From the IMG/VR virus record IMGVR_UViG_3300042261_000360, positions 1 to 51,538 of that record: DNA of 51,538 bases; one strand, written 5' to 3'. Below the pieces are notes generated by a model that was given only the letters and a program-made list of their open reading frames with translations, was not told where the DNA came from and did not search any database. Both the position numbers and the translations under genes were made by a program. Shown in pieces: positions 12,445-28,554 of this stretch. Each line of letters starts with the position of its first letter. Position 1 is the stretch's first letter. The stretch comes from a virus.

Positions 12445-12452
12445 TATTTATC
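12445..12452 (-). promoter_or_regulatory. late promoter core before the 491-residue fibre gene
   Basis: The stop of the 758-residue gene and the core are fused as TAGATAAATA. The core ends 6 bases before the ATG at 12438, and the string GATAAATAACTATTATG is identical to that at 8351-8335. No ribosome-binding sequence is present. Confidence 0.66.
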
Positions 12453-14728
12453 TATAAAAGATCGGCCGGAAATTCCAGACTGGTTGTTGTCAGTAGATCT
12501 GCACTGCCACCATAGCTTTCCATGTCTAAACCAGCAGAAATATCTACTAGATTTAGATCCTCATTGGTTGCAGATCCAACATATAATAGATCTATGCTAC
12601 CACTGGTGGTCAATAGATCGCTTGGAGCTATGTAGAATAGACTACTGTCCAGGGTTATGGTGTCATAGATGCTGGCAGTATCGGTTAATAGGCGTGTAAA
12701 GTTGCTGGTCTGAGCCTGATCATTTATGGGACCTAGTATTTTTACCAGATACCAGTTATTGCCCTGATCTACTATGTTGGCCATGTTAACATTTACACTG
12801 GTGGTTACAGTTACGGAGCTTAGATCAAAATCAGCCCAGTGCGGGGTGGTTGTGCCACCGTTCATTAAATCTGTGTCAAAAGGCAGTGCTGGGCTACCCA
12901 ATAGATCGTAACTGCCACTGGTAGGCATAAGATCATAGACTACGTTGTTCTGTGGTCCAACATATAATCTGACTTTATTAATGCCGGTGCGGCGTCGTAC
13001 ATACATGCCTGCGCTAAAATAATTTTCGCTCAGAGCAGTTACCGTAGTCTGTACATAGTGTTCGGTATTGCTGGAACTCAGAGTGATCAAACTTATGCCC
13101 GTGCTGGTAAAGCTGGTTCGGGTAGCCAAAGGAACTATGGTGTACCATTTGCGTGGAGCATAGGTATTGTTTAGATTGGTAAATAGCTCCTGCAACTGGT
13201 CAGCATCATAGCTGACATTTCTATAGGGTAAACTGGCGCTGAGTAAAACACTGGTCTGTATGACACTAAGACCTGTGGTAGACCAGAGACTGCGATCCAA
13301 CCTTTCACTGTATAAAATTCTATTGGTTCTGACCACACTGATCAGTGTGCTGCTGTTGTAGTCACCTATGGTGGCTCGTTTATTATACACTCTACCATAG
13401 ACATCGGTACTGGTTATGGTTTCACGTTTAGGCGCCTGAGCCAGCAACATGGCCATGGTTTCCTGACCATTATTGCTGTGTCTAACACCGCCATAGTAAT
13501 CACCAACATGCACTACTTCTGTTGCACCAGCTGCTTCTACAATGTGATCATAGTCTGTGTATAATGGTGTTAACTGGAACCAGGATTTATTTTTAAATGC
13601 CGATGTCTCAGCCGTAAAACCAGCGTCTGTGGTAGACTGATGTCGATTGTTAATGACTATGGTGGTATCAACACCACGTTTCATGGTCTGTTTAAGAGTA
13701 AATTTCATGGTTTCAGGATCAATACTACCGGCCAGACGCGAAGTCTGACTGCTGGATCCATAGCCCAGTATGGTCTGATCATAAAAATGTTTTTCACCTG
13801 AATACACAAAATGATCTGCACTGATCAGCATGTTGTCATATACATAGGGACTGCCATCACCTATGCCGGCTGCAAAGAAGGCGCGCTGACTACGAGGCAC
13901 CATGCTGTACCAGTCATACTTGTTATAGTAGGTATAATCTGTAGTACGCAACGGTGTATAACGAGCCAGGTTGATGATGCTAGATGTTTTGTTTATGGGT
14001 TCTAGTCCCATGACACGCATGGCATCAAAGCGCGGATTCTGCGGTATCTGTTTGGTTTCGTCTAGGTGTTTGTCAAAGAAATGTACTTCGGTATCAGCAC
14101 CTATGGCCATGCGAGCTCTTTGACTTCGGCCAACATCACTGAACCAGTCATAGGCATTGTAATAGACATTGTCACCTGAAACTGGTGTATAGCGATTGTA
14201 GCTAAATGTATCAGATGTCTTCTTAACCAGCTCCAGACCCATGATCTTGGCCGCATCAATGATTGGGTTACTAGGAATTCTGCGACGGTCGTCGCTGACA
14301 GTTACGCCTGTGCCATCTACGCCAGGTGTATCTTTGATGCGTTTTTGCAGGTCAAACAACAACATTTGAGCATGTGCAGGTGTTATACTATCCTGAGGTG
14401 CTCGATCTACGAAGATTGCAACATTTTCCTGATAGACATTATCCATGCGTGTACCAGAAGCACCGCCAACCAATATGCTATCGTAGCCTGGATCACCACT
14501 GGCACCAGAACCAAAACGCAATCCAATAAAATTATGCTCTATGCCCGTGGTGCGGGTATAGCGATAATTGTTGATGTAATCGTTAAGTATGTCCTCGCTG
14601 TATTCTGCGAGTTCGAGTTGAGAGCCCCAGAGTCTAAGACTGTTGCTGGAATTACCAGCATAGACCAGCGAGCCAGAGTTATTCAGTAGGCTGTATTTGA
14701 CCAGTATGCTTGATCCAAACAAGCCCAT
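12452..14728 (-). CDS. large fibre protein with four WYxLxP modules, starting inside a lectin-like domain
   Basis: This 758-residue protein opens with a half-domain (YSLLNNSGSLVYAGNSSNSL, LWGSQLELAEYSED, YRYTRTTG) that also begins the 137- and 430-residue proteins. Four repeats of the DA...WYxLxP type follow (about residues 150-210, 225-290, 365-410 and 500-540), for example IPQNPRFDAMRVMGL ending YDWYSMVPRSQRA. The repeats are linked by fibre segments such as YDNMLISADHFVYSGEKHFY. A partial carbohydrate-binding-like domain (TNRILYSERLDRSLWSTTGL ... FSAGMYVRRRTGINKVRLYV) occupies about 470-680. The tail has short repeats of the form LLTTSGSIDLLYVG. The protein is a relative of the 2165-residue fibre. 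The small 85-residue gene lies just upstream. Confidence 0.72.
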   Translation of the reverse strand: MGLFGSSILVKYSLLNNSGSLVYAGNSSNSLRLWGSQLELAEYSEDILNDYINNYRYTRTTGIEHNFIGLRFGSGASGDPGYDSILVGGASGTRMDNVYQENVAIFVDRAPQDSITPAHAQMLLFDLQKRIKDTPGVDGTGVTVSDDRRRIPSNPIIDAAKIMGLELVKKTSDTFSYNRYTPVSGDNVYYNAYDWFSDVGRSQRARMAIGADTEVHFFDKHLDETKQIPQNPRFDAMRVMGLEPINKTSSIINLARYTPLRTTDYTYYNKYDWYSMVPRSQRAFFAAGIGDGSPYVYDNMLISADHFVYSGEKHFYDQTILGYGSSSQTSRLAGSIDPETMKFTLKQTMKRGVDTTIVINNRHQSTTDAGFTAETSAFKNKSWFQLTPLYTDYDHIVEAAGATEVVHVGDYYGGVRHSNNGQETMAMLLAQAPKRETITSTDVYGRVYNKRATIGDYNSSTLISVVRTNRILYSERLDRSLWSTTGLSVIQTSVLLSASLPYRNVSYDADQLQELFTNLNNTYAPRKWYTIVPLATRTSFTSTGISLITLSSSNTEHYVQTTVTALSENYFSAGMYVRRRTGINKVRLYVGPQNNVVYDLMPTSGSYDLLGSPALPFDTDLMNGGTTTPHWADFDLSSVTVTTSVNVNMANIVDQGNNWYLVKILGPINDQAQTSNFTRLLTDTASIYDTITLDSSLFYIAPSDLLTTSGSIDLLYVGSATNEDLNLVDISAGLDMESYGGSADLLTTTSLEFPADLL
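13110..14280 (-). repeat. four WYxLxP modules in the 758-residue fibre protein
   Basis: Units lie at about 14100-14280, 13870-14050, 13500-13630 and 13110-13220. The first two are most like the DALRV...WYS.VP subtype, the third like the SWFQLTPLY subtype, and the last (YDADQLQELFTNLN ... KWYTIVPL) is nearly the same as unit 1 of the giant fibre. Confidence 0.7.
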
Positions 14729-14737
14729 TAAAACTCC

Positions 14738-14995
14738 TTAGATAGTTGTGTTGATGTCTGCTGCGGCTATGACCCAACCGTTGTCAAACGCTGCCTGTAC
14801 AATTTCATCTCGGCTACCAGGTATGGTCTGGCCTAGATCAAGAAAGCGTTTAACTGCTATGTTGATGATTTCGTCCATGGCAATGCGAGCTCTTTCATGC
14901 ACTGCGTTGTCAATCCAGGCTGCTGGACTAGCAGCTGCATAGCTCAGAGCCAGATTTTCTGCATCGGTTAATGTAACTGTAAATGATTTTGACAT
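14738..14995 (-). CDS. conserved small fibre-operon protein of unknown function
   Basis: This 85-residue acidic, mostly helical protein (FTVTLTDAENLALSYAAASP, WIDNAVHERARIAMDEIINI, ending AFDNGWVIAAADINTTI) matches, as I recall, a family of small proteins found beside tail fibre genes in marine T4-like phages. No function is known to me. The opening LTDAE..AL and the WIDNAV.ER.RIA.DEI segment are the conserved marks. It lies 9 bases upstream of the 758-residue fibre and 4 bases downstream of the 338-residue fibre, so it is expressed with them. It could be a fibre chaperone or a small virion component; neither is shown by the sequence. Confidence 0.7.
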   Translation of the reverse strand: MSKSFTVTLTDAENLALSYAAASPAAWIDNAVHERARIAMDEIINIAVKRFLDLGQTIPGSRDEIVQAAFDNGWVIAAADINTTI

Positions 14996-14999
14996 AATT

Positions 15000-16016
15000 T
15001 TATCCTAGTAAATATCCCTGTAAATAGCCCCAGCCAGAACTGCTATAGAAGTTCCAGGTGGCACTGTTTGATGCAAGATTAGTTGCTGGTGCAAATGTAT
15101 CACTGGCGTTTAGTTTTATGGTAGCAAACCCTTTGACAGCTATGTAACCATCACCATAGGTTAATGGTGAGGCATAGATGTATCTGTTACCACCATTGTA
15201 AAATACACTGTTGTAGAGCCAACCGTCATCAATTCTAGTATTAGCTGTTAAATTTTGTAATAAGTAAACCCACATGAACATGTAGACACCAGCTGCAGGC
15301 GCAGTAAATACGCCGGTTGAAGCGTTGTAGCCGCTGCCAAATGTACCATTGGTCTGAGCTATGGTAGTATAGATAGGTATGGCCTGAGTAACGCCAGAAG
15401 CATATGTACCAGAACTTATGGTGTTGGCATAAAAGAATGGCTGGTTGGGCTTGGTTACCCGAGCGGCCTGGTCTATGCGTATGCCTTCGGATGTTGTTGT
15501 TGAAGGATAGTTACCTACACCCAGGGCCATGCCACCATAGTTAGCATAGGGATTGAATTCTATGTAACCCATGTTGGTGGCATTGACTCGTTGTTGTAAT
15601 ACATAACTGGCCGTAAACCAGTCTGCACCATTGGAGTTTCTCTTGCCAAATAATCGTATGTAGTTGCTTTCGCTAGGGCTATAATTGGTCAGCTGAGCAA
15701 TTTCCAGAGTCTGACCAACCGATGTTCCCAGATAACCAGCAGCCACGGTTATGGCTGTTAAAAAGTTAGTATTGACGCTAATGATGCCGCTGGTGACCAA
15801 AACGCTGGTGCCATCGGCTCGAACAGCACCCAGAGCGCTGGTTGTTGCTGGTGTGCGAGCATAGGTTTCAGTAGCCAATCTGGTTCCACCAGTGGTATAG
15901 CCATTGTGGACTATAACGGTGCTGAGACTGGTATCAACAAATAGTTCTCCCTCAGCTCCCAGCACTGTGGTCAGGCCTGATGTGGTTCCTCGTCTGTGTT
16001 GTACTATTTTTGCCAT
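15000..16016 (-). CDS. tail fibre protein with Mtd-N-like head and C1q-like tip
   Basis: This 338-residue protein has the shared head domain at residues 1-55 (VQHRRGTTSGLTTVL, then EGELFVDTSLSTVIVHNGYT), the collar motif VRADGTSVLVTSGIIS (about 63-80) and a beta region with YIRLFGKRNSNGADWF and YIEFNPYANYGGMALGVGN (about 110-175). From about residue 195 comes a C1q/TNF-like jelly-roll: FFYANTISSGTYASG, then YNASTGVFTAPAAGVYMFMW, then IKLNASDTFAPATN. The likely role is a trimeric adhesin at a fibre tip. A late-promoter core lies about 22 bases before the ATG, with the upstream side overlapping the 430-residue gene's promoter region only downstream of this gene. The head is most similar to that of the 204-residue gene; the two share a 21-base identical run near the start. 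Confidence 0.77.
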   Translation of the reverse strand: MAKIVQHRRGTTSGLTTVLGAEGELFVDTSLSTVIVHNGYTTGGTRLATETYARTPATTSALGAVRADGTSVLVTSGIISVNTNFLTAITVAAGYLGTSVGQTLEIAQLTNYSPSESNYIRLFGKRNSNGADWFTASYVLQQRVNATNMGYIEFNPYANYGGMALGVGNYPSTTTSEGIRIDQAARVTKPNQPFFYANTISSGTYASGVTQAIPIYTTIAQTNGTFGSGYNASTGVFTAPAAGVYMFMWVYLLQNLTANTRIDDGWLYNSVFYNGGNRYIYASPLTYGDGYIAVKGFATIKLNASDTFAPATNLASNSATWNFYSSSGWGYLQGYLLG

Positions 16017-16038
16017 GTTAGAATTCCGTAGTTTTTAT

Positions 16039-16046
16039 TATTTATC
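16039..16046 (-). promoter_or_regulatory. late promoter core before the 338-residue fibre gene
   Basis: The stop of the 430-residue gene lies downstream on the minus strand in gene order from the 338-residue gene only if read leftward: the core GATAAATAATA starts within that stop codon at 16045-16047 (TGATAAATA) and points leftward to the ATG at 16016, 22 bases away. The leader has no strong Shine-Dalgarno sequence. Confidence 0.62.
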
Positions 16047-17337
16047 AGACAGGAATCACCTGATAATCCTCGGTTGCTGCAGTCAATACCTGATAGTCTT
16101 CGCTGTCAGTAATCAAAGTCTGCAGATCCTGAACCACATTAATGGTTGTTTGATCAGCCCCTGCTACAACATAATCATAGTCATTGTAGTGATCATAGGT
16201 ATGTGTATAGTTAGCATAATAGGGTCCTAGTTTATACCAGGCTCGACCAAAATACGATGCTGCCTTGTAGTTAACAAATATCTCGGCTACCTGAGCAGTT
16301 AAACTGGTTGTACTCCAGCTGCTGGTCTTGGCATAGTAATCGCTGAACAATCCTCGGTTGGCAACCAGCTGTAGATTCTTGCTGATGCGTTCGTCCATGA
16401 TCTGATAGTCAGGTGGTAGCTTATAGGTCTGAGTAAAGCTTAAAGTATCAGTAAAATCAAATACTTCGCGTATGATAGGACCAATCTGATCACCCTGACC
16501 ATAGGCAAACTTGGCTATGCGACTCAGAGGTGCCAGACTGTACCAGTCATAAGTTCTGTACAAGGTAGTTGATCCAGTTATGGGTGTATACAATCCCAGA
16601 TTGATGCTCTGAGAAGTATTATAGTGATTGAATACCTCGGCTACACGAGCTGCATCATAGCGACTGCCACTGGGTATGGTTTTGGTTTCGGCAAATACCT
16701 TGTTGTAGTATTGACCAGGTTTTTCTGTAGCAGTTACGGTGTCAGTGGTTGGTTTAGGTATCTGATAAAAGGCTATGGTTTCAAATGGATCAGGAGCTGT
16801 TTTAAATCCACCAGTCAGACTACCTACACGAACCTTGTCGGCATCGTCGGGCAGACGTTCATCACGAGCATAGTCACTATAATATGGTGCCAGTTTAAAC
16901 CAGCCACGACCATAGTTGCTGCGTGGTTTGTTAACAAAGATATCAACAATCTGATCTGCATCCAGAGTTTTATTAACATTAATTCTGAGCTGGGTTACTT
17001 CGCGTTCGCCAGAGCGTTTGGCTCTAATTAAATTTTTATAGGCCAATTGTTCCTGAGCACTGTTGCTGACTCGCTGACCAAATGGCAGACCAGGTATTAC
17101 ATAGTCTATGTTGTAATCATAACCAATCTGCAGATATCTGCTGCTGCTCTTTTGACCTCGGGTGCGTATATACTGATAGTTTTGTACATCATCAATTAAT
17201 CGCTGAGCATCAGTTCCTAGCTCTACCTGTGCACCCCAGACAAATAATCCGTTGTTAGCCCCTGCATACACACTGCTGCCTGCTGCATCCAGCATCTGTA
17301 TGGTTATTAGTAGACTTGTTGAGACGTAGTTTGCCAT
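16045..17337 (-). CDS. fibre protein with three WYxLxP modules, starting inside a lectin-like domain
   Basis: This 430-residue protein starts with the half-domain IQMLDAAGSSVYAGANNGLF, VWGAQVELGTDAQ and YQYIRTRGQKSS, as in the 137- and 758-residue proteins. It then has three DA...WYxLxP units: LDADQIVDIFVNKP ... GWFKLAPYYSDY (about 120-165), YDAARVAEVFNHYN ... DWYSLAPLSRIAKF (about 220-280) and TAQVAEIFVNY ... AWYKLGPYYANY (about 345-385). These are separated by FETIAFYQIPKP and FDFTDTLSFTQTYKLPPD linkers. It ends with a short tandem tail (ITDSEDYQVLTAATEDYQVI). The ATG directly follows the stop of the glycine-rich gene (TAAATG). The stop codon itself forms part of the late promoter of the next gene (TGATAAATA). 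Likely a shaft or branch piece of the same fibre as the 2165-residue protein. Confidence 0.7.
   Translation of the reverse strand: MANYVSTSLLITIQMLDAAGSSVYAGANNGLFVWGAQVELGTDAQRLIDDVQNYQYIRTRGQKSSSRYLQIGYDYNIDYVIPGLPFGQRVSNSAQEQLAYKNLIRAKRSGEREVTQLRINVNKTLDADQIVDIFVNKPRSNYGRGWFKLAPYYSDYARDERLPDDADKVRVGSLTGGFKTAPDPFETIAFYQIPKPTTDTVTATEKPGQYYNKVFAETKTIPSGSRYDAARVAEVFNHYNTSQSINLGLYTPITGSTTLYRTYDWYSLAPLSRIAKFAYGQGDQIGPIIREVFDFTDTLSFTQTYKLPPDYQIMDERISKNLQLVANRGLFSDYYAKTSSWSTTSLTAQVAEIFVNYKAASYFGRAWYKLGPYYANYTHTYDHYNDYDYVVAGADQTTINVVQDLQTLITDSEDYQVLTAATEDYQVIPV
16170..16975 (-). repeat. three WYxLxP modules in the 430-residue fibre protein
   Basis: Units lie at about 16830-16975 (LDADQIVDIFVN ... 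GWFKLAPYYSDY), 16500-16680 (YDAARVAEVFNH ... DWYSLAPLSRIA) and 16170-16300 (TAQVAEIFVNY ... AWYKLGPYYANY). They belong to the same module family as in the giant fibre. Confidence 0.7.
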
Positions 17338-18966
17338 TTAAAATACCATCATCATAGCAGCCGCTGTTGTTGTAGCTGATGTTAATACTAAACTTGCGTT
17401 ATAGGAAAATACTAAGAGACCCTGTGATCCAGATACACCCGGATAACCTGCTCCACTACCACCACCATAGAGACCACCTGCAGTACTACTATATCCACCA
17501 CCGCCACCGCCTCCAGGACCTGCAGTTGCACCATCACTTGTCTGAGTCCAAATGCTACCTGCAGAACCAGCAGTGTTACCACTGGCAGCGTTACCGGCAC
17601 CTCCATTACCACCCCCTGTAGGTGCAGTTGTTGCACCAATTGGTCCGGTCGAACCATTTACACCTGGTAATGTTGTTCCTGCTCCGGAACCACCGCTACC
17701 ACCATAGTTACCATTAGCAGCACCACCTGCGCCACCTGCTCCTCCAGGGCCGGCTGCACCGCCGCCACCGCTACCAGGTATTCCCCCACCTGATCCACCA
17801 CCTGCGCCACCAGAATATTTAACATCACCGATGCTTGAAGCAGCTGCTCCTCCAGCTCCACCAGCAGGCCCAGCTGCACCACCGGCGGCTAGTACACCTT
17901 GAGTCGCTGTTGTTGGCTGAGTATTGGCTACTGTACTAAACCATGTAGAATCACCAGCAGCACTTACCCGAACATATGCTACACCACCGGCAACTAAACC
18001 AGTAATAGAAGTGGTTTTAGCATATGCTCCCCCACCTCCGCCTACTCCTCCAGTACCAGAGGGTGTATTAGTACCACCTGCACCTATGGCTTCTATGGAT
18101 ATGATAGAGCTAAAATCTGAAGGAATTGTATATACCTGTGGAACAGGTCCGCCGTAGGGTATAAACACGGTTTTAGGTGTGGTATTGTTATAGATGAAAA
18201 CAATCAATCCGTTGCCACCTGAGGCAACGTTGGTTCCCTGAGTCTGGTTACTTGCACCTGCACCACCACCATAGGCACCACCGATGCCAGCCTGGTTGCC
18301 GTTGCCCTGGTTAGCTGCACCAGAACCACCACCTGGACCTGCTGTTCCACCCACTGATGCTGTCCAATAAGTTCCAGCACCACCGGGCTGACCTGGATTA
18401 CCACCTGAACCTCCGGCACCACCACCGGCTACACCGTTGTTACCTGCACCACCGGCACCGCCGCTTTGTCCACTGTTTGAAGTACCGTTTACACCGGCAC
18501 CATCAGGGCCACCAGCACCGCCTCCACCGCCACCGGCCAGGTTATTACCGCCTCCGTTACCACCAGTACCACCGGAAAATTTTACGTTACCTATGCTAGC
18601 CGATGCCTGCCCGCCAGCTGCACCACTGTTTTGGTTGGTTGCACTACCAGATCCACCTTTGGCAAGTACTGTACTTGTATTATAAAACCAGGTATCGCCA
18701 CCGGGTGTTCCACTTATACCTGTATTAGCACCTCCTGTACCCCCAGTGCCAACGCTGACATTGACCACCTGGCCAGGTGTAAGAGTTGGAAATCCAGAAG
18801 TTAAAGCTGCATAGGCACCGCCACCACCACCACCGGTAGATCCACCGCCAGACCCCTGACCGCCTGCTGCGCCACCTGCACCAATACAATGTATGGCTAC
18901 TAGATTGACAAAGTCACTGGGTATGGTAAATGTAGCACCCGAAGTAATGAATACGGTTCTTGCCAT
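17338..18966 (-). CDS. glycine-rich adhesin with two tandem glycine-rich domains
   Basis: I choose the ATG at 18966 (MARTVFITSGATFTIPSDFV), giving 542 residues. A longer frame from 19002 exists but would overlap the preceding gene by 34 bases, and its extra 12 residues look unrelated to the domain. The protein holds two copies of one domain: a short beta lead-in (TFTIPSDFVNLVAIHCIGAG, and YTIPSDFSSIISIEAIGAG near residue 280), then about 180-200 residues of GG-rich loops, then a closing strand (GLIVFIYNN and GLLVFSYNA). This plan fits the phage glycine-rich domain family and recalls the polyglycine loops of adhesins such as T2-type gp38. The likely role is receptor binding at a fibre tip. The very C-terminal stretch AMMMVF is unusual. 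The upstream stop is two bases away (TAATAATG). Confidence 0.8.
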   Translation of the reverse strand: MARTVFITSGATFTIPSDFVNLVAIHCIGAGGAAGGQGSGGGSTGGGGGGAYAALTSGFPTLTPGQVVNVSVGTGGTGGANTGISGTPGGDTWFYNTSTVLAKGGSGSATNQNSGAAGGQASASIGNVKFSGGTGGNGGGNNLAGGGGGGAGGPDGAGVNGTSNSGQSGGAGGAGNNGVAGGGAGGSGGNPGQPGGAGTYWTASVGGTAGPGGGSGAANQGNGNQAGIGGAYGGGAGASNQTQGTNVASGGNGLIVFIYNNTTPKTVFIPYGGPVPQVYTIPSDFSSIISIEAIGAGGTNTPSGTGGVGGGGGAYAKTTSITGLVAGGVAYVRVSAAGDSTWFSTVANTQPTTATQGVLAAGGAAGPAGGAGGAAASSIGDVKYSGGAGGGSGGGIPGSGGGGAAGPGGAGGAGGAANGNYGGSGGSGAGTTLPGVNGSTGPIGATTAPTGGGNGGAGNAASGNTAGSAGSIWTQTSDGATAGPGGGGGGGYSSTAGGLYGGGSGAGYPGVSGSQGLLVFSYNASLVLTSATTTAAAMMMVF

Positions 18967-18968
18967 TA

Positions 18969-19583
18969 TTATGCCTGTTGTGCTGTTGCTATAACGTCCC
19001 AATAATAATCATCGGCGTTATAGATGCAACCCACATACAATACCTTACCTAATACTGTTGTAGACGGTAAAGTTATGCCTATGCCTCGGAATGCACTGGT
19101 TCCAGATCCTGTAAAGGTTAGTACACGAGCAGTTCCATTGTCTTTGATTCTGATGATTAATCTCTGTCCATTAACTGGAGACCCAGCTGGTGCATTAAAT
19201 GTAGCTGAGTTGCCCAGAGCAGTTAATAAAAATGTATCGTATAGATCGGTATTAATGGTAAATGTACCACCAGCTGAACCGGTCTGAGAAGATGTACGAG
19301 GGAGAATTTTTGTATTACCAAGCACGCTACTGACTGAAATAATTCCACTATTGACTACAATGCTAGTATTGTCAGGCTGTACTTTACCAAGAACACTGCT
19401 TGTTGCGGTTGGAGCAGCATTTTGTGCATATTGCTGAGTAGCTAAAGTAACACCACCCGTGGTTAGTCCGTCATGTACAACCACAGTTACCAAACTGGTA
19501 TCTACAAATAATTCACCAGGCGCGCCCAGTATGCTGGCCAGCCCGCTTGTTGTTCCTCGTCTGTGTTGTACTACGCGTGTCAT
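18969..19583 (-). CDS. short fibre protein with Mtd-N-like head and common phage beta end domain
   Basis: This 204-residue protein begins with the shared head (VQHRRGTTSGLASIL, then PGELFVDTSLVTVVVHDGLT, residues 1-55), followed by the collar motif VQPDNTSIVVNSGIIS (about 68-85). The last 115 residues are a domain I know from many tailed-phage structural proteins: FTINTDLYDTFLLTALGNSA, GQRLIIRIKDNGTARVLTFT, LPSTTVLGKVLYVGCIYNAD and WDVIATAQQA. Its role is presumed structural or receptor-related. It lies between two glycine-rich adhesin genes, with a 15-base gap upstream. The head is nearly identical in plan to the 338-residue fibre, including the RRGTTSGL motif, so the two probably descend from a recent recombination or duplication. 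Confidence 0.75.
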   Translation of the reverse strand: MTRVVQHRRGTTSGLASILGAPGELFVDTSLVTVVVHDGLTTGGVTLATQQYAQNAAPTATSSVLGKVQPDNTSIVVNSGIISVSSVLGNTKILPRTSSQTGSAGGTFTINTDLYDTFLLTALGNSATFNAPAGSPVNGQRLIIRIKDNGTARVLTFTGSGTSAFRGIGITLPSTTVLGKVLYVGCIYNADDYYWDVIATAQQA

Positions 19584-19598
19584 GTTTACGTCCTAATT

Positions 19599-21077
19599 TT
19601 AGTATGAAATTGTAATATATCCTGATCCACCACCGGCGCCACCAGATCCTCCGGCTCCACCATTGGTTGATGCTGATTCTGATCCACCTGCTGGAACTAC
19701 ACTTTGACCGTCCCAGGCAGAATAACTTCCGCCACCGCCGCCCGAAGCACCGTTATTACCACCCTGTGGACTACCGCCTCCGCCACCACCGCCTGATGAA
19801 GTATCACCACCAGGATCTGGTCCATTCTGACCAACAGTTGATCCACTACCCGTAAAGCTTCCTGTGCGAGCTCGACCTGGTGCACCTAGGTCACCGCCTC
19901 CGCCTCCGCCTCCACCGCCGGCCAGTGCTATAACAGCACCCGAGGTTCCTAGCAGATATGATGCAGCGCCACCGCCACCTCCAGATCCAGAAAATCCAGA
20001 TCCACCAGCATTACCACCACGCCCACCATTATAGGTGCCTGAGGGTTCAGTACCAGCTACACCACCGGCTTTGTTGGTGCCACCATTACCATTACCACCA
20101 CCGCTGCCTACTCGGGCTGTAAGTGTCCAGCCTGGAGTGACTGGTAAAGCAAACGTAACCAATCGGCCTGGATAGCCAGCATAACCTGGTCCAGCTCCGT
20201 CGTCACCTCCACCACCGCCTCCACCACCGGCTATGCTAACATTAATGCTTGCAACACCAGCTGGAACTGTAAATGAATAACTGCCAGTCGATGCATAGTT
20301 TAAAATGGTTGGTGTAAGTGGAGTTATTTTTACATAGCCATCACCACCGTTGCCACCTGGGTGACCGCAACAGCTACCATTCTGGGCACCGCCACCGCCA
20401 CCACCAGATCCATTTGATCCTGCCTGACCGTTGCCGTTGCCACAACCACCACCTGGTCCACCAGTTCCACCAGCACTTACGGATGAAGCACCACCTGTAC
20501 CACCAGATCCAGTACCCTGTGTAGCTGAACCATTTCCACCTGTGGTGCCACCTGCGCCACCTGGATTGTTTGTTTGTGCACCAGATACACCACCCTGACC
20601 AGGTAAAGCTGATGCAACTATACTACCGGAACGTACTAGTATGGATGATGCACCAGCATTTCCAGAACTGCCCGTGGGTCCGCAACCACCTGGACCTCCT
20701 GTACCACCAGAGCCAACAGCTACGGTTATGGTTTCTCCTGGTGTAACTGACAGAGTTGTACTGGTTTCATAACCAGATCCTCCACCAGAGCCAGCGTAAC
20801 CATAATGTACGTAACCGCCGTCGTTACCAGCAGCACCACCGCCACCGCCACCTATGGCTATTATGGCTATGGATGTAACCGTAGGTGGAACCGTATAGGT
20901 ATAGGTTCCAGCAGCTGTATAGATTGTGGAACCAGTTGTGTCTGGATAAAATTGTTTGCCAATGCCGCTCTGAATTACTGTACCAACACTAACTGATGAC
21001 CAGGCACCGTTGCGTTTTACATAAATTCTCTGAACCTGTTTCCATGTACCTGCATCTTTGACCCATATTTTTGGCAT
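19599..21077 (-). CDS. glycine-rich adhesin with W-motif head and two glycine-rich domains
   Basis: This 492-residue protein starts with two short copies of a tryptophan motif (IWVKDAGTWKQVQRIYVKRN, then GAWSSVSVGTV, residues 3-35), a common head on phage tip proteins. Two glycine-rich domains follow. The first lead-in is YTAAGTYTYTVPPTVTSIAI (about 55-75), closing at DGYVKITPLTP (about 250). The second lead-in is YASTGSYSFTVPAGVASINV (about 258-278), closing at SGYITISY at the C-terminus. Each middle part consists of GG-rich loops with few large residues. Such domains are expected to display variable loops for receptor contact. The gene is 3 bases after the 133-residue head gene and 16 bases before the 204-residue gene. 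The repeated glycine codons make this a likely site of length variation. Confidence 0.8.
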   Translation of the reverse strand: MPKIWVKDAGTWKQVQRIYVKRNGAWSSVSVGTVIQSGIGKQFYPDTTGSTIYTAAGTYTYTVPPTVTSIAIIAIGGGGGGAAGNDGGYVHYGYAGSGGGSGYETSTTLSVTPGETITVAVGSGGTGGPGGCGPTGSSGNAGASSILVRSGSIVASALPGQGGVSGAQTNNPGGAGGTTGGNGSATQGTGSGGTGGASSVSAGGTGGPGGGCGNGNGQAGSNGSGGGGGGAQNGSCCGHPGGNGGDGYVKITPLTPTILNYASTGSYSFTVPAGVASINVSIAGGGGGGGGDDGAGPGYAGYPGRLVTFALPVTPGWTLTARVGSGGGNGNGGTNKAGGVAGTEPSGTYNGGRGGNAGGSGFSGSGGGGGAASYLLGTSGAVIALAGGGGGGGGGDLGAPGRARTGSFTGSGSTVGQNGPDPGGDTSSGGGGGGGSPQGGNNGASGGGGGSYSAWDGQSVVPAGGSESASTNGGAGGSGGAGGGSGYITISY

Positions 21078-21079
21078 GT

Positions 21080-21481
21080 TTACACCTGATACCAGATATC
21101 CCCATCGTTACCACCAGCTGGCGATGACGTAGAAATAGTTCTTACCCCATAACCATTGGAACTGGTAGCTATGGAGATGACACCCGCAGTTAATGTAACT
21201 ATGCTGGTTCCATCTACACGTACTATGCCCTGTGTGCTGCTGGTTGCCTTGGTGGTAGCAGCTATAAAAGCATTGCTACTGACATTGGCTATGTTTGTAG
21301 CAGTTACTGAACTCAGTGTCTGTACGTCAGCGTTTCGAGCCAGTGTGGTTCCGCCGCTGGTAACACCATCCATGACCACTACGGTATTAAGTGTAGTATC
21401 TACAAATAGTTCAGCCTGAGCTCCTATGATTGTAGCTATGGTTGTGGTTGGTGCATTTCTAAATATCAGTGTTTTTGCCAT
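21080..21481 (-). CDS. minimal fibre protein: Mtd-N-like head and collar only
   Basis: This 133-residue protein has the shared head (LIFRNAPTTTIATII, then QAELFVDTTLNTVVVMDGVT, residues 1-50), a short linker (TATNIANVSSNAF), the collar motif VRVDGTSIVTLTAGVIS (about 87-105) and the ending SSPAGGNDGDIWYQV, which is common at the end of phage structural proteins. It has no recognisable tip domain and is the shortest of the six head-bearing proteins. The gene directly after it is a glycine-rich adhesin with a different head, so the pair could act as base and tip. That is inference. A GATAAATA core lies 20 bases before the ATG, and AGGAAC sits at ribosome-site distance. Confidence 0.7.
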   Translation of the reverse strand: MAKTLIFRNAPTTTIATIIGAQAELFVDTTLNTVVVMDGVTSGGTTLARNADVQTLSSVTATNIANVSSNAFIAATTKATSSTQGIVRVDGTSIVTLTAGVISIATSSNGYGVRTISTSSPAGGNDGDIWYQV

Positions 21482-21501
21482 GTTAGTTCCTGTTTATTGC
21501 A

Positions 21502-21509
21502 TATTTATC
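21502..21509 (-). promoter_or_regulatory. late promoter core before the 133-residue fibre gene
   Basis: CGATAAATATG lies in the gap between the 63- and 133-residue genes, 20 bases before the ATG at 21481, with AGGAAC as a ribosome site between. The gap placement favours a real promoter, which would start the glycine-rich adhesin group. Confidence 0.68.
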
Positions 21510-21514
21510 GTGTT

Positions 21515-21706
21515 TTAACTTATTAATTCTAACCCCACGGGATCGTTGTTTAGGTTCTCTGATCCATAGATGTTGTTTAGATTTACTGTGGTATCTGGTA
21601 AATTTGCCAGTATGATAACACTGGTTTCAAAATCCGGATATTCACTCTGAGTCTGGTAGTCAAAATTACCAGTTAGTAGCATGTAATCAAAGGTTCCCGT
21701 AGCCAT
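21515..21706 (-). CDS. small protein resembling fibre C-terminal tails
   Basis: This 63-residue protein reads FDYMLLTGNFDYQTQSEYPD early on and ends NLNNDPVGLELIS. Two short copies of a motif like G.FDY.LLTG.FDYQ stand at residues 4-18. Similar short tandem tails end the 430-residue protein (SEDYQVLTAATEDYQ) and the 758-residue protein (LLTTSGSIDLLYVG). It therefore looks like a fibre tail segment that has become a separate ORF, or a small virion piece. It lies 8 bases after the stop of the 2165-residue fibre and may be coupled to it. No domain is recognised, and its short length lowers certainty, although the tight spacing argues that it is real. Confidence 0.5.
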   Translation of the reverse strand: MATGTFDYMLLTGNFDYQTQSEYPDFETSVIILANLPDTTVNLNNIYGSENLNNDPVGLELIS

Positions 21707-21714
21707 ATAATCTC

Positions 21715-24700
21715 CTACATGTAATCGGTTATTTTATCGTTGTTGATGCTTTCAGCAGCAGCTGCGGCATCTGCAAAGGTTCTGCGATCTCTGCGCAGGA
21801 AGCTTAAACCAGCATCTCCAGCAGTAATGGTGTCTGAACTTACGGTAAATCTAATCAGTGTATTTTTATAGGTTCTTATGGGTGCCACCAGCTGACACAG
21901 GAACACTCCTGCGCTGGTATCAACTGTGCGTATGTTGGCAAATAAGACATCTGCAGTACTGGTTACTACACTGACGCTGCTTAGATCAAAGTCTGCATAA
22001 AGTCTGCCCATGTCCATGCGGAATCGACTGGTGCCGCTCTGACGCTGTACGTGTAGACTAAAGGTAGCATATTCTTCGGGTATGCTATAATCTGCCAGCT
22101 GTACTTCGGCCTGCATGTAGTGCTGACCAACATTGTCCTGATCGGTCATGTATTGTAATACAGTTGAGCTAAAGGCCACTCTATTGGTCAATGGAACCTG
22201 AGCATACCAGGCTTTGTCATAGTAGTTGTTGTAGCGTGTATAGATGCTGCTGGTTCCAAGCATGTAGTATTGTTCGGCAATCTGAGTAGCATCAAAGTTT
22301 GTATTGCGATATGGATATGACCCTGACATGAGTTGAGGTGCAGCTATGACACTGGCATTGGTTTTCCCCCAGTATTCAGTGGCGAAGTTTTCGCTATAGG
22401 TAACCTGATTGGTTTTACTGACCAGTACTGCAGCTGCCGATGTTAGACTACCACGATGCGCAGTCAATAGCACGGAAAATTTAGCAGTTTCACCACCACC
22501 CTGGCTAGACTGGCGACGGAATCCAGCATCAGTTCCTATGACTACATGATTAGAACTAAGTGTCTTGGCTGGTAATAACTGTACAATCTCTTTATAGCTA
22601 AGTATGATACGATCAGTATCAGCTGGCGTTTGATTTAGATGTCCATAGCTGTTATAGTAAGGAGCTAACTGATACCAGGCCTTCTTATAGGGATTGTTGC
22701 GTATTACAGCTGATACATTGTTGCTGCTGTTATAGAATATTTCCTGTATCTGATCGGCATCCAGAGGACTGGCCGGACGATTCTTAACATACAGGTCAGT
22801 AAATACGCTCTGTCTAGCACTCTTACGTAGATTAATATCCAGACTTTCCTGTGTGTCACCGTGGTATCTGACACCTATGTTAGTAACCGATGTTGTTGTA
22901 TAAACTAAGTTAGTAGTATATGAACTAGTACCTACAGTTAGTATGATACTGCTTAGATACTTGTTGCCACTATAGGTCAGGTTATCACCAAAACTCATGT
23001 TATCTAACATAACTGGACCCGTTCCAGCATTACCTAGAGCAAATCTGGCTCGGTTAAATCTGGGAACTTCACTGTACCAGTCTCGAGCCGCATAATAGGT
23101 GGTTGAACCACTGATGGGCGTATACTGAGTGAGATTAACAATGCTGGTGGTTTTATTGACCAGATCCAGACCAGCTACTCTGAGAGCATCATATCTGGGG
23201 TTCTGTGGAATCATGCGAGTCTCACTGAGCTCTTTGATTACATAGTTACCCTTGCGTTCCAGCGCTGGAGCTGTATCCTGCAGTGTAGCAGGTATCTGGA
23301 AGAAACTGACTCGTTCAAATGGATCAGCATTGGTGCGTTTACCTGAAGTTTGACTACCAATGCGTACGCGATCATAGTCAGCTGGTTCGTCTATGATGTT
23401 AACATAGGTGCCATAATATGGTGCTAATTTATACCAGGTCTTGGCTGTTACGGATTTTTGTTCTGCAGTTAATTGAGCATCTGTAATTGTATTATTGCTG
23501 ATGTCAAAGGTCTGTATGCTTCTGGTGCCAGCGCGTTTGGCTCTGAGCTGAGCAACAAAGCTGACATTTTCCTTGTCATCCTTGATGTTAAATCCAACAG
23601 GACTACCATAGGTTAAAGTATCATAGATGTACTTGTCGGTTTCATAGGTAAGAGTATCACCTACCATCATGTTGTCCAGCACAGTTGTATCATCTGCAAA
23701 GATTTTTGCGGTCCAGAACAGAACCTGTTCCAGAGGCCAACCCACGTGTTTTTTACCAATGCGGCCAGTGCCTAATATGACACGATCTGTGTCCATGGGG
23801 CTTTGTTTTATGTGATCATAGCTGCTATAATACGGAGCCAGCTGATACCAGCTGCGTTTGAATGGGTTGTTTCTGATATAGGCAGTATTGGCATTGCTGC
23901 TGTTATAGAATATTTCCTGCACCTGATCTGCATACAATGGACTAGGACGAGCTACTCGTACATACAGGTCCGTAAATGTACTTTGTTTGGCAGTTTTTCT
24001 AAGATTTACATCTAGACTTTCTTGCGTGTCGCCTGCATATCTGACACCTATGTTGGTTATGGATGTGCCAGTGTAGATTAGGTTAGTAGTATAGGAACTA
24101 GTACCAATGGTTATAGCTGCACTGGTCAGATATTTTTGTTGACTGTATTTTAGACCATCGCTTATGGCAAAATTATCCAGCATGTAAGGACCGGTTCTGT
24201 CGCCAGGGCCAATGGCTATGCGAGGACGACTAAACTTAGGTGCCAGGTAATACCATTCTTTGTAGCTTCTATAAACCAACGTGCCCTGATTTACCGGCGT
24301 ATAGGCTCGACCATCTATGCTGCGTTGAACATTGCTGAATAGTTCACTGACAATTTCAGCATCATACTGAGGATACTGTGGTATGCTGCGATTTTCATAG
24401 AAGTTTAATTTAAAGTCAAATTTAACAGACTCAGATGAACTCTGGCTGGGTTGTAATCTAGTACCAGAACTAGTTCCTGCTACAATGCCATCACCACGAG
24501 GCTGTTTGTTTAGACTAACATCTATGGTTTCAAAAGGATCACCAGCATATTTTGCGCCACCCAATCTAGAACCAGGTCTGACAAAATTGTCAGCACTGTT
24601 TAAAACTATGGAACCAGCCCAGGTAAAGTCGTCACCCAGAGCCATGTTATCAATCATCTTAGGACCTATGCCAGCATTACCAACAGCAAAACGAGCGCTG

Positions 24701-27700
24701 CTAAACAGTGGTGTTAGACTATACCAGTCCCAGGCCCTGTAGTAGGAAGCATCAGTAGTTTCTAATGGTGTAAATTTATTTAGATTGACCGAACTGCTGG
24801 TGCGGCTTACCAAATCTATGCCAGCTACTCTGAGAGCATCTATGCCGGTGTTTCTAGGTATCATGCGAGTTTCGCTAAACTCTTTTCTTATGTAGTTACC
24901 CAACCGTTGATCAGTGCTGACAACTACATCGCTCTTGCCCAGATTAGGCAATAATTGTCTGAGTTCTAGTATGCTAACAGGATCGTTGCCAACAAATCTT
25001 GGCTGTATGAGACTGATGGCATCGGGCGTTACTATGCTATCCAGGTAGTTTAGAACACCCAGAGCCTGTGTAGGACCAACAATCTGACACAGATACCAAC
25101 CAGAACTGCTGTCCATGGTGGTAATGTTATTGTATAAGGTTCCACTGCTGGTTATGACGCTAACTGCACTAAGGTCAAAGTCAGCCCAGACCCAACCAAC
25201 CTGTAGTCTAAATTTAGTTACGCCATTGTTAGGGCTGGCATAGATAGAGCTGGCAAAGAAGTTACCACTGAGATTCTGAGCATAACCAAAGGTCTGTACG
25301 GTATGAATGCTATTGCTAGAACTTTCAAAGATGTCAATGATGGCATTGCTGGTAAAGTTTGGTTTGTTGCGTAATGGTACTATGTCATACCAGCGAGAGC
25401 GTTCATAGGTATATTTCTTATTGAAATAAATGTCATATAACTGACTGGCATCTAGAACAACATTTCTATAGGGCAATGCACCTGCCATGATAGCAATGCC
25501 TGTAGTCGCCCTGACATTGGTCTTGAGCCAGTAATCATAGTCTAATCTTTCACTCCAGCGAATTAAATTGGTTCTGACGGTCTTATAGGTGCTGGCTGTG
25601 CTGCTACCCGAACTCTTGGCTGCTTTATTAAACCATATGGCCAGTGTTTCTGTATCACTGGGAGTGCGTGTAATGTTAGGCGAACCAACAGTAACAGTCT
25701 GACCCAGACCAGAACTATCATTGAGGCTAGGTGTTAAAAACTGCGTTACCTTACGAGCAAAATAATCTGTAGGTGTAGCTGTAGTCTGATCTTTGATGCT
25801 GTAATTTAATTTAAATGCAATGCTTTCAAAAGCATCATTATACTGCTGTTGTAGACCAGAACGCTGCAGCGTACCAACAAATACACGATCTTTATCATTG
25901 GGAGTAACACTAAAGCCTATGCGGCTAGCAGGACCGCCTGCGGTGCGTATGTATTTGAGACTGCTGACTTCCTGTTCGACCTGATCGCCAATTTCTAACT
26001 GAGCACCCCAGACAACCACACCACTGGTGCCATTGCCTGCAAAGGTTGCATTTCTGCTATCATCTAACAGATAGATCTGAGCCTTTTGATTGATTAACTC
26101 AGGAACAAGATTTAAAAAGTCCGTGCCATACTGACTATTAAGGCTGTTTAATAGTATCTGATGCAGTATCTGTAGCTCTGGTGCTGCACCTGAACTAACC
26201 ACGCGATTTTCAATCCAGCACAGAACCCAACCATTGCCTATGGCCTGTATGCTGGCTCGATTAGCAGTCTTATCAACTATGGTATTATTGACCAGGTCAA
26301 AGTCAGCCCAGACATCTACAGTAGATACCAGTCTGACATAGCGTGTGCCAGCATATTTTAAGTATACTGCATAACTAAAGTTCTGATTGGTGGTCAGACT
26401 TAATATGTTAGGTGTAGTTATGTAGTGCTGACTGGTGCCTGTGGTGGCTACAAGTAAGTCGCCATCGGAACTAGCAGTCCAGCGACCAGGTACTAGCTGA
26501 TACCAGGCTTTGCCATAGGGATCCAGAGGCTGATTGGTAAATAGCTCCTGCAGCTGATCGGCATCATAGGTTGGACTAGGACTGGTAACTACATTGGCTG
26601 GTGCAACAACAGCATTGCTGCTTATTCGCAACCCAGTGGTTGCCCAGTACGAAGACTGATCAAACTGCTCGCTCCAGCTAATTAGGTTGGTTCTGAGTAT
26701 GGGGTATGATGTTAGAGCTCCGGCTCGAGCGTCTTTTAGTATTAACTGTGCTTTCTGTTCTAATGGATATACTGGACTCAGGAACCCATGATGTGGATAG
26801 CGATAGAATTCTATCTTGCGAGCAAAATAATCCGTAGGTGTATAGGTATCATTTTTCTGTATGATGCTGGTATGATTAATACCATCGCTGAGTCTTACCA
26901 GAGGATCGTCTGCGGTAACTGTATCGGCTAATAGTTGTGCAAATAAGAAGCTCTTGAAGTCATCTGTTCCAATCAGATCCTCATAGTTTCTGCCTCGTAC
27001 AAATATCAGAGTATCTAACAGACTTAAATAATCACTGCTGAGTTTATCTATGTATTTGCTAGCAAGATCATCAGCAACGGTGCTTTCAGTCTGATTCTTA
27101 GCGGCTACCTTGGTAAATACATCTAGGAATTCTTGCTGATCAGATACGGGTTTGTTAACCAATAATGCCGGCAAGTCACTGGCAGTGCTGAGTTCGGTAA
27201 ATAGTTTTTCATAGGCAAATATAATATGATCAGCAAACTCCATGCTATCCAGCATGGTGGTTTCGTCACTCAGAGTCTTGCCAAAGCTTCTGATTAATAA
27301 TTCTGTCAGTGCTGCAGTATCAATGTTGCCTTTGTTGGCCCAGATGGTCTGAGTCTGATCAGTAGTAATGCTATCTGCAACAGGTTTGGTAAATCTTAGT
27401 TTGTTAACATCGGCTATGATTTCTTCTTCAGTAGCACCCTTGCTATAACCCTTGGCCAGTACATCCAGGATCTCCATGTCTGGATCCAGGAACTTATCAA
27501 ATACAAAGCTAATGTTTTCTAAATTGTTGCCAGAGGTTCTGAGACCAGTGCCTTCGGATCCAACTGTTAGGAATTCATAGATGTGTCGATTTAAACTAAA
27601 GGTTGAACCGTCTATGAAGGTAAACGCATCCAGCATGCCTACGCTGTCGTCAATGGTTCTGCTTACAGTAATTCTTCGGCTAAAGTCGTCGGCTGCAGTA

Positions 27701-28212
27701 ATGTTTTCAAAGAATGTTTTAACACGAACTATGCTAAAGTTATCCAGGAAGCTCTGTACTTCATTAATGGGAGCTTTGATGAATAACTTGGCTGGATTGC
27801 TAACAACATCAACAGACTGATCAAATGTACGTCTGGCACGCAGCAGGAAGGATATGGTTTCGTCAGTGTTTAGTACATCCAGAGGTTGACGATTTTTTAC
27901 GGTCTGTAGTAATATGCTGTCCAGACCAGCAATGGCATCAGCTGACGATTTATTAAAATTTAAGCTAGGACGTTCAGTTAAGAACAGGTAATCCCAAAGA
28001 GCTCTGAGTCCCTGACCTTCGGGATCGTATAATAAATGATCGATGATTTTTGCCGAGGCATTGGCAATTTTAGGAACCAGAGTCTGACTGAGATTTTGCA
28101 GTCGTTGAATACTGCTTTGCTGCTGTACAGCAGCTTTGAATATACCAGATTGCGTGGTAGATGCACTGACTGCTAGGCTAGTAGTGCGATTGGCTATCTT
28201 GCGAATAGTCAC
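21715..28212 (-). CDS. giant modular tail fibre protein
   Basis: This 2165-residue protein starts at a GTG (28212) preceded by GAGG at good distance. Residues 1-about 460 are repeats of a cyanophage-fibre type, alternating acidic helices and strands (FLDNFSIVRVKTFFENITAA, LDAFTFIDGSTFSLN, LDSMEFADHIIFAYEKLF). From about 490 the protein alternates carbohydrate-binding-like domains (TNLISWSEQFDQSSYW ... WADFDL ... VVWGAQLEIGDQV) with at least nine DA...WYxLxP units (about residues 545 to 2010) joined by segments such as MLDNMSFGDNLTYSGNKYL. Two of the internal blocks (DNA about 22600-22980 and 23770-24150) are clear tandem duplicates. It should be a long trimeric fibre shaft whose lectin-like domains contact the cell surface. 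Its place after the DUF4815 baseplate protein suits attachment there. Confidence 0.82.
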   Translation of the reverse strand: MTIRKIANRTTSLAVSASTTQSGIFKAAVQQQSSIQRLQNLSQTLVPKIANASAKIIDHLLYDPEGQGLRALWDYLFLTERPSLNFNKSSADAIAGLDSILLQTVKNRQPLDVLNTDETISFLLRARRTFDQSVDVVSNPAKLFIKAPINEVQSFLDNFSIVRVKTFFENITAADDFSRRITVSRTIDDSVGMLDAFTFIDGSTFSLNRHIYEFLTVGSEGTGLRTSGNNLENISFVFDKFLDPDMEILDVLAKGYSKGATEEEIIADVNKLRFTKPVADSITTDQTQTIWANKGNIDTAALTELLIRSFGKTLSDETTMLDSMEFADHIIFAYEKLFTELSTASDLPALLVNKPVSDQQEFLDVFTKVAAKNQTESTVADDLASKYIDKLSSDYLSLLDTLIFVRGRNYEDLIGTDDFKSFLFAQLLADTVTADDPLVRLSDGINHTSIIQKNDTYTPTDYFARKIEFYRYPHHGFLSPVYPLEQKAQLILKDARAGALTSYPILRTNLISWSEQFDQSSYWATTGLRISSNAVVAPANVVTSPSPTYDADQLQELFTNQPLDPYGKAWYQLVPGRWTASSDGDLLVATTGTSQHYITTPNILSLTTNQNFSYAVYLKYAGTRYVRLVSTVDVWADFDLVNNTIVDKTANRASIQAIGNGWVLCWIENRVVSSGAAPELQILHQILLNSLNSQYGTDFLNLVPELINQKAQIYLLDDSRNATFAGNGTSGVVVWGAQLEIGDQVEQEVSSLKYIRTAGGPASRIGFSVTPNDKDRVFVGTLQRSGLQQQYNDAFESIAFKLNYSIKDQTTATPTDYFARKVTQFLTPSLNDSSGLGQTVTVGSPNITRTPSDTETLAIWFNKAAKSSGSSTASTYKTVRTNLIRWSERLDYDYWLKTNVRATTGIAIMAGALPYRNVVLDASQLYDIYFNKKYTYERSRWYDIVPLRNKPNFTSNAIIDIFESSSNSIHTVQTFGYAQNLSGNFFASSIYASPNNGVTKFRLQVGWVWADFDLSAVSVITSSGTLYNNITTMDSSSGWYLCQIVGPTQALGVLNYLDSIVTPDAISLIQPRFVGNDPVSILELRQLLPNLGKSDVVVSTDQRLGNYIRKEFSETRMIPRNTGIDALRVAGIDLVSRTSSSVNLNKFTPLETTDASYYRAWDWYSLTPLFSSARFAVGNAGIGPKMIDNMALGDDFTWAGSIVLNSADNFVRPGSRLGGAKYAGDPFETIDVSLNKQPRGDGIVAGTSSGTRLQPSQSSSESVKFDFKLNFYENRSIPQYPQYDAEIVSELFSNVQRSIDGRAYTPVNQGTLVYRSYKEWYYLAPKFSRPRIAIGPGDRTGPYMLDNFAISDGLKYSQQKYLTSAAITIGTSSYTTNLIYTGTSITNIGVRYAGDTQESLDVNLRKTAKQSTFTDLYVRVARPSPLYADQVQEIFYNSSNANTAYIRNNPFKRSWYQLAPYYSSYDHIKQSPMDTDRVILGTGRIGKKHVGWPLEQVLFWTAKIFADDTTVLDNMMVGDTLTYETDKYIYDTLTYGSPVGFNIKDDKENVSFVAQLRAKRAGTRSIQTFDISNNTITDAQLTAEQKSVTAKTWYKLAPYYGTYVNIIDEPADYDRVRIGSQTSGKRTNADPFERVSFFQIPATLQDTAPALERKGNYVIKELSETRMIPQNPRYDALRVAGLDLVNKTTSIVNLTQYTPISGSTTYYAARDWYSEVPRFNRARFALGNAGTGPVMLDNMSFGDNLTYSGNKYLSSIILTVGTSSYTTNLVYTTTSVTNIGVRYHGDTQESLDINLRKSARQSVFTDLYVKNRPASPLDADQIQEIFYNSSNNVSAVIRNNPYKKAWYQLAPYYNSYGHLNQTPADTDRIILSYKEIVQLLPAKTLSSNHVVIGTDAGFRRQSSQGGGETAKFSVLLTAHRGSLTSAAAVLVSKTNQVTYSENFATEYWGKTNASVIAAPQLMSGSYPYRNTNFDATQIAEQYYMLGTSSIYTRYNNYYDKAWYAQVPLTNRVAFSSTVLQYMTDQDNVGQHYMQAEVQLADYSIPEEYATFSLHVQRQSGTSRFRMDMGRLYADFDLSSVSVVTSTADVLFANIRTVDTSAGVFLCQLVAPIRTYKNTLIRFTVSSDTITAGDAGLSFLRRDRRTFADAAAAAESINNDKITDYM
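22190..26590 (-). repeat. nine WYxLxP modules in the giant fibre
   Basis: Nine units of about 45-65 residues share a start DA(D/L).(Q/R)(V/I)...(F/L), an aromatic core WY.L.P and often an end (V/I)x(I/V)G. Examples are PLDADQIQEIFYNSSN ... AWYQLAPYYNSY and YDALRVAGLDLV ... DWYSEVPRFNRA. Approximate DNA positions, in gene order: 26490-26590, 25385-25465, 24680-24870, 24210-24390, 23770-23960, 23370-23510, 23030-23220, 22600-22790 and 22190-22320. Two blocks including units 5 and 8 are near-duplicates at DNA level. Confidence 0.72.
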
Positions 28213-28215
28213 GAA

Positions 28216-28554
28216 TTACCTCGTGACGCGTGGTGATACTGTGATTATTCCTTCTACAGCTCGAGTGATAGTTCCTGTGCTGGTCTGTGTTAAGACTACA
28301 TCATAAAGATAACGACCATATTTAATACCAGTTGAACTACCTGCGGGCAGGGTGAGATATAATTCACCATTGCTGGCTATGGGTATGCTAACGGTCAGCG
28401 TGGCTGTTGCACTGACACTATCATAACTGCGACGCATCTGAGCTGAGCCTGCGTAACCTGCTAGATTCAGGGCATCAGTGTTATTAGCGAATAGTTTGAT
28501 AACTGCCTGGAAGTCTGTACCCTGTTCCAGGACTAGATTTTGTTGAATAGCCAT
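28216..28554 (-). CDS. small virion structural protein beside the giant fibre
   Basis: This 112-residue beta-rich protein (LVLEQGTDFQAVIKLFANNT, DALNLAGYAGSAQMRRSY, then LYDVVLTQTSTGTITRAVEG and ITVSPRVTR) has the pattern of a small phage protein family with EQG.DF...i.l......p.nLtGy...aqmR......a, which I recall from T4-like marine phages and podoviruses next to fibre genes. It may be a connector between baseplate and fibre, but I cannot name an established function. The ATG follows the previous stop directly. Three bases separate its stop from the GTG of the giant fibre, so the two are likely made together. A TATAAATA core lies about 60 bases before the ATG. Confidence 0.68.
   Translation of the reverse strand: MAIQQNLVLEQGTDFQAVIKLFANNTDALNLAGYAGSAQMRRSYDSVSATATLTVSIPIASNGELYLTLPAGSSTGIKYGRYLYDVVLTQTSTGTITRAVEGIITVSPRVTR

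Follow-up and report, generated by a model that had tools for sequence, protein, structure and literature searches.

A recurring WYxLxP peptide as a loop insert in three fibre proteins of an uncultured T4-like phage

Sixteen copies of a short peptide unit centred on the motif WYxLxP are present in three fibre proteins encoded by an uncultured T4-like myovirus. The unit is real, is undescribed in the libraries that we searched, and belongs to the known modular phage fibres. A preliminary description of this DNA had proposed that it is a unit of trimeric shaft or a docking site. However, the copies interrupt existing domains (a lectin domain and the shaft repeats), and unfilled versions of the interrupted sites are visible. 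Therefore, 'transplanted loop insert' describes the unit better than 'shaft unit' does.

Sixteen units in three fibre genes

The window, which is the whole 51.5-kb stretch of a virus record that was analysed, covers the neck, baseplate and fibre region of the phage, and nearly all of its genes lie on the minus strand. Among named phages, the Pelagibacter phage HTVC008M has the nearest baseplate wedge protein (37% identity). When 50,697 named phage records were searched, no relative was found for the 2165-residue fibre (E 1e-5) or for the 430-residue fibre (E 10), and the 758-residue fibre gave only a chance-level match (E 5). The ORFs that carry the units are as follows.

21715-28212, minus strand: fibre ORF of 2165 residues, 9 units
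12452-14728, minus strand: fibre ORF of 758 residues, 4 units
16045-17337, minus strand: fibre ORF of 430 residues, 3 units

All of the copies counted in the preliminary description were located. The three subtypes that it distinguished were likewise confirmed, and none is confined to a single gene: types A and B are in all three fibre genes and type C is in two. Less well founded was the assignment of a closing (V/I)x(I/V)G to the unit: in type A, these residues already form the following strand of the host shaft and thus lie outside the unit. The positions of the units are listed below.

26488..26565, minus strand: type C core in lectin domain D1, DADQLQELFTNQPLDPYGKAWYQLVP, residues 550-575 of the 2165-residue fibre
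about 26467-26598, minus strand: whole type C insert in lectin domain D1
25375..25452, minus strand: type C core in half-lectin D2
24655..24861, minus strand: type B insert, 2165-residue fibre
24181..24384, minus strand: type B insert, 2165-residue fibre
23818..23934, minus strand: type A unit, 2165-residue fibre
23404..23484, minus strand: type A unit (short form), 2165-residue fibre
23008..23211, minus strand: type B insert, 2165-residue fibre
22645..22761, minus strand: type A unit, 2165-residue fibre
22192..22293, minus strand: type C core in half-lectin D3
16870..16962, minus strand: type A unit, 430-residue fibre
16474..16677, minus strand: type B insert, 430-residue fibre
16207..16302, minus strand: type A unit, 430-residue fibre
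14099..14278, minus strand: type B insert, 758-residue fibre, the most degenerate of type B
13841..14047, minus strand: type B insert, 758-residue fibre
13550..13630, minus strand: type A unit (short form), 758-residue fibre
13130..13207, minus strand: type C core in the half-lectin of the 758-residue fibre

Leave-one-out profile HMMs recover every one of the 16 units, with iE values from 2.2e-23 to 8.4e-6. With the same profiles, the best non-unit stretch among 16,423 residues of window ORFs reaches no more than 2.1 bits. These two results indicate that the recurrence of the unit is not due to chance. Because the units were picked by motif, the leave-one-out recovery demonstrates coherence beyond the picked residues rather than blind discovery.

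The fibre cluster also includes many small ORFs. The 112-residue ORF at 28216-28554, which precedes the long fibre, has PHROG matches (1.5e-18) that include phrog_3304 (L-shaped tail fiber protein assembly) and phrog_1084, a family of unknown function. Several small ORFs have in common an N-terminal domain of ~50 residues (phrog_9648; start like M(A/T)(K/R)(I/V)VQHRRGTT), which is possibly a common attachment module of accessory fibre proteins.

7039-8337, 10237-10959, 10963-12438, 15000-16016 and 21080-21481: small ORFs with the phrog_9648-type N-terminus (PHROGs)
18969-19583: small ORF with the phrog_9648-type N-terminus, assigned by eye

Searches for known relatives of the unit

The preliminary description named no earlier report of this module. 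In agreement, profile searches with the A, B and C units matched no family in Pfam, PHROGs, NCBIfam or the PDB. A Pfam match had been named beforehand as one outcome that would count against the unit, and none was obtained. Degenerate DNA patterns for DADQxxEIF and WYxLxPYYxxY returned only chance matches (e.g., histidine kinases) from 2.9 million viral contigs, and the same was true when 84,980 genomes were searched with a longer DADQ pattern. Being strict, these patterns would overlook copies that have diverged, and so the unit family may be wider than what is seen here.

Type C inserts in a GTA-spike-fibre lectin domain

The host of type C is a lectin domain that is complete in D1 of the 2165-residue fibre, where it holds two inserts.

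25987..26694, minus strand: lectin domain D1, complete, GTA-spike-fibre type, holding both inserts, residues 507-742 of the 2165-residue fibre
26086..26202, minus strand: second in-frame insert of D1, ELQILHQILLNSLNSQYGTDFLNLVP, from alignment with homologues

The NCBIfam model NF048003.1 (GTA_spike_fiber) scores 89.1 bits on the 2165-residue ORF (E 5e-25), which is above its curated cutoff of 36. A D1 domain profile matches the RcGTA head spike fibre Rcc01080 at 7.8e-51 and the fibre chains of E217 and Pa193 at 4e-21 and 8e-21, respectively, and matches to the lectin domain in named phages are weak. The AlphaFold model of D1 has a core pLDDT mostly above 90 and the beta-sandwich fold of the GTA_spike_fiber family. 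With Foldseek, this model finds 9b45 (Pa193) and 8env (E217) at about 1e-7, and CBM22 domains also match. The pLDDT of the D1 monomer is about 40 at the insert, and a short helix of low confidence is predicted at DADQLQEL. The model of the 430-residue fibre, built on a four-row alignment, has a pLDDT of 30.

Alignment with homologues places the type C unit between 'AP' and 'DG' of the lectin. Outside the phage clade to which the window belongs, no more than one extra residue is seen at this site in any of 131 full-length lectin domains (76 viral loci), and the longest extra stretch at the second insert site in the same domains is 7 residues. Both inserts are present in all clade members with a readable D1 (L013, L015, L018, L023/L104, L101, L105, L112, L113 and L273, with L099 as a diverged form). 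The parsimonious reading of these alignments is that the inserts were gained in this clade. A profile of the D2-type lectin finds only the same clade and one insert-free lectin.

The second D1 insert is about 35 residues long and lies just ahead of the last lectin strands. Its hhalign values are 66% to type A and 11% to type C, and the unit HMMs do not pick it up. We consider this suggestive only and have not counted it as a true unit, and it is possible that it is a degenerate one.

Shaft sites that host types A and B

Types A and B sit at two turns of the shaft repeats. In the 2165-residue fibre, unfilled type B sites (ETTM-LDSM and DTTV-LDNM, with the hyphen marking the site) adjoin the filled form ETRM[IPQ...GPVM]LDNM, where the boundary was set by eye because automatic alignment put the left flank of filled copies away from that of unfilled ones. 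Filled and unfilled versions of the same sites can therefore be compared inside one protein.

23632..23700, minus strand: unfilled type B site, FADDTTVLDNMMVGDTLTYETDK, 2165-residue fibre

Unfilled type A sites are found in the fibres of relatives (SGTTVIAGT-DSEVVFVG), and the window has roughly 35 to 50 extra residues there. Relatives' fibres that end inside their own contigs are 1117 to 1149 residues long, and no clear A or B unit was seen in any relative's fibre, complete or cut by the contig end. Beyond D2, the window fibre extends for about 1,000 residues more, and all of its A and B units lie in this extension. The contig of L104, the nearest relative, stops short of the A/B region and so is silent on these units. 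We also considered TAG recoding in the fibres of two relatives. The lengths (129 + 1 + 947 = 1077) identify the TAG as the stop of the same-frame upstream gene, and thus there is no recoding.

Three more distant relatives (L103, L107 and L110) have entire beta-sandwich, LamG-like or Gly-rich domains, assigned by eye, at type-A-like shaft positions. It is as if the type-A-like shaft loops were general cargo sites. The unit is found in three fibre genes, in two or three contexts that have no relation to one another, and so the suggestion in the preliminary description that it is shuffled between fibres is borne out.

Relationships among the three types

Types A and C have a common core of ~31 residues, DADQ(L/I)xE(I/L)FxN...WYxLxP. 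An HMM built from type A only finds type C units at 2.7e-8, 7.2e-6 and 1.3e-3, and one built from type C only finds four of the six type A units at 1.6e-7 to 2.4e-4. These cross-type matches start at DADQ, end at WYxLxP and cover 30 to 40 residues. Moreover, hhalign aligns A with C over 32 columns in register (P 97%, E 8e-11, with E-values here and below referring to a single comparison). Thus, judged by sequence profiles, types A and C are clearly homologous and form one family.

Type B has 'DA' and 'WYxLxP' in common with the other types. It is probably related to C (hhalign P 86%, E 5e-6), and its homology to A appears weak (P 23%, E 9e-4). HMMs built from type B only give no significant match to any A or C unit. 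W/Y-rich loops are common in fibres, and the three types might merely look alike through independent convergence. The B results are what such convergence would predict, whereas the similarity of A and C, significant by two methods and in register, makes it already unlikely for that pair. We therefore regard convergence as a poor explanation overall. Since the homology of type B is only probable, it may be that A/C is one insert and B another, with ends that have converged.

Selection on the lectin insert and tests for a nucleic-acid element

When the window is compared with L104, the type C insert of D1 (insert 1) has a pN of 0.17 and a saturated pS of 0.90, and the lectin core has a pN of 0.35. 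Most synonymous sites are saturated between relatives. In most other pairs of relatives, the dN/dS of insert 1 is 0.04 to 0.18, and a single close pair, which has few changes, gives 0.26. Apart from that pair, the value is similar to or below that of the lectin core. Insert and core are about equal in the pairs L113/L111 and L015/L117, and so a stronger constraint on the insert rests on few pairs. Nevertheless, it follows from the low dN/dS that the lectin insert is translated and that purifying selection acts on it. This test covers the lectin insert only, as types A and B have no relatives to compare.

These data bear on the reading that the unit is a nucleic-acid element, such as a mini-intron, a translational bypass or a repeat of the kind found in Rickettsia palindromic elements, whose peptide has no role. 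Such an element would give rise to what is seen here, with members of one sequence family placed in frame, and cleanly bounded, at sites that are unrelated. However, purifying selection acts on the peptide, RNA folding is ordinary (z of -1.9 to +0.7 relative to shuffles for 10 copies), no palindromic or inverted-repeat ends were found on the units, and the copies are only about 40-64% identical as DNA. The reading is largely refuted and we give it very little weight, with codon selection and ordinary RNA folding arguing against an RNA element, intron or bypass.

Two candidates for gene conversion were set aside. One type B pair has 24 of 34 codons in common where 14 are expected, and the type C units at 13174 and 26532 have a 38-nt patch with 92% identity. 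Both signals are too weak in view of up to 136 comparisons. Between L113 and L015, the DNA of D1 insert 1 is identical and insert 2 differs at 62% of synonymous sites, which is a sign of a recombination junction within D1.

Possible functions of the unit

Our preferred explanation, to which we give a little less than an even chance, is that the unit packs on a neighbouring chain or repeat and thereby locks the fibre. The unit is a small in-frame insert module made of a short predicted helix (DADQ(L/I)xE(I/L)FxN), a variable loop and WYxLxP. It fills loops of existing beta-domains, namely the lectin 'AP'/'DG' loop for type C and two shaft turns for types A and B, and probably spread by gene duplication and recombination among the fibre genes of one phage clade. 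Once in place, the aromatic residues and helix could act as a clamp against the neighbouring subunit or repeat, such that one part stiffens or locks many different fibre segments. This proposal draws on the hydrophobic or aromatic nature of the conserved unit positions (A, L/I, F, W, Y, L and P), which a packing interface would be expected to have, together with a variability that is no higher than that of the host domain.

It is also conceivable, albeit somewhat unlikely in our estimation, that the unit serves as a loop for binding a glycan or receptor, with its WY pair as an aromatic platform that is placed on any available beta-domain and multiplied for avidity to host surface polysaccharide. 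Conserved W and Y residues are typical of sugar stacking, and here W, Y and also N/D are conserved, as would suit sugar binding. Sixteen copies would give high avidity. Furthermore, one host domain belongs to the family of RcGTA head spike fibres, and it is by its head spikes that RcGTA attaches to capsular polysaccharide (PMC7296036; PMC10218006). However, conservation of the insert roughly equals that of the lectin core and exceeds it when the window is set against L104, whereas loops that contact a receptor usually vary most. A binding loop also leaves the conserved hydrophobic residues of the helix without explanation.

A still less probable reading is that an assembly factor, or a small partner fibre protein from a nearby gene, docks on the unit. 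The many small ORFs of the fibre cluster, among them the ORF at 28216-28554 with its match to L-shaped tail fiber protein assembly, could supply such partners, and repeated identical sites would account for the conservation. Against this, similar small accessory ORFs are also found in relatives whose fibres have two C-type units but lack clear A or B units, and thus the number of partners does not obviously track the number of units.

Fibre evolution is usually described as the exchange of whole domains. Here, a peptide of ~30 residues has moved between loops of unrelated domains and been kept by selection. As a clamp, the unit would be a portable part from which long trimeric fibres are built. 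As a binding loop, it would show how a phage multiplies one receptor contact.

Half-lectins

In addition to D1, the fibre genes encode incomplete lectin domains. Of the 165 lectin columns, three half-lectins hold just the first ~125, and the last ~32 alone are found at the start of three ORFs (e.g., YAGNSSNSLRLWGSQLEL).

25072..25575, minus strand: half-lectin D2, N-terminal part, lectin HMM columns 1-127 only
21880..22416, minus strand: half-lectin D3, N-terminal part
12728-13330, minus strand: half-lectin of the 758-residue fibre, N-terminal part
17215-17310, 14612-14704 and 6935-7024: lectin C-parts that start ORFs

The half-lectin of the 758-residue fibre, an N-terminal part alone, scores 29.8 bits with NF048003, under the cutoff of 36. 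It also has an extra insert of 39 residues, PQNNVVYDLMPTSGSYDLLGSPALPFDTDLMNGGTTTPH, at 12839-12955 (residues 592-630), between 'RLYVG' and 'WADFDLS'; this insert is missing from the other lectins and is unlike the unit.

The relatives L113/L273 and L101 have one N-part and one C-part each. Strand complementation between separate fibre proteins is possible. A combined proposal, in which the ~30-residue insert locks or equips unrelated beta-domains and, in addition, the three half-lectins with type C units are completed in trans by the C-terminal lectin strands at the start of three fibre ORFs, such that strand complementation near the unit joins separate fibre proteins, is a long shot. If half-lectins do complete in trans, their interest would be greater.

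Comparison with known systems

The host domain of type C belongs to the same family as RcGTA Rcc01080 (PDB 6tb9), E217 gp45 (8env) and Pa193 gp46 (9b45). The GTA_spike_fiber homologues examined lack both inserts, and the WYxLxP unit is not part of that family.

Rickettsia palindromic elements (entry points PMC2229807 and PMC2996958) resemble the unit in being short in-frame insertions in unrelated coding contexts, which for the unit are the lectin loop and two shaft sites. In contrast to those elements, the unit has neither a palindrome nor a stably folding nucleic acid, given the z values above and the lack of related inverted repeats; it was seen in fibre genes only, and its peptide is under purifying selection.

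There is also a likeness to the modular tail fibres of T4-like phages, which are likewise long, consist of repeated 'K...sDt...D' segments and carry cargo domains that can be exchanged. Relatives of the window have fibres of this kind, with beta-sandwich, LamG-like and Gly-rich cargo (domain names given by eye). What sets the present fibres apart is that the exchanged part is a loop peptide of ~30 residues, which is carried by two unrelated host domains.
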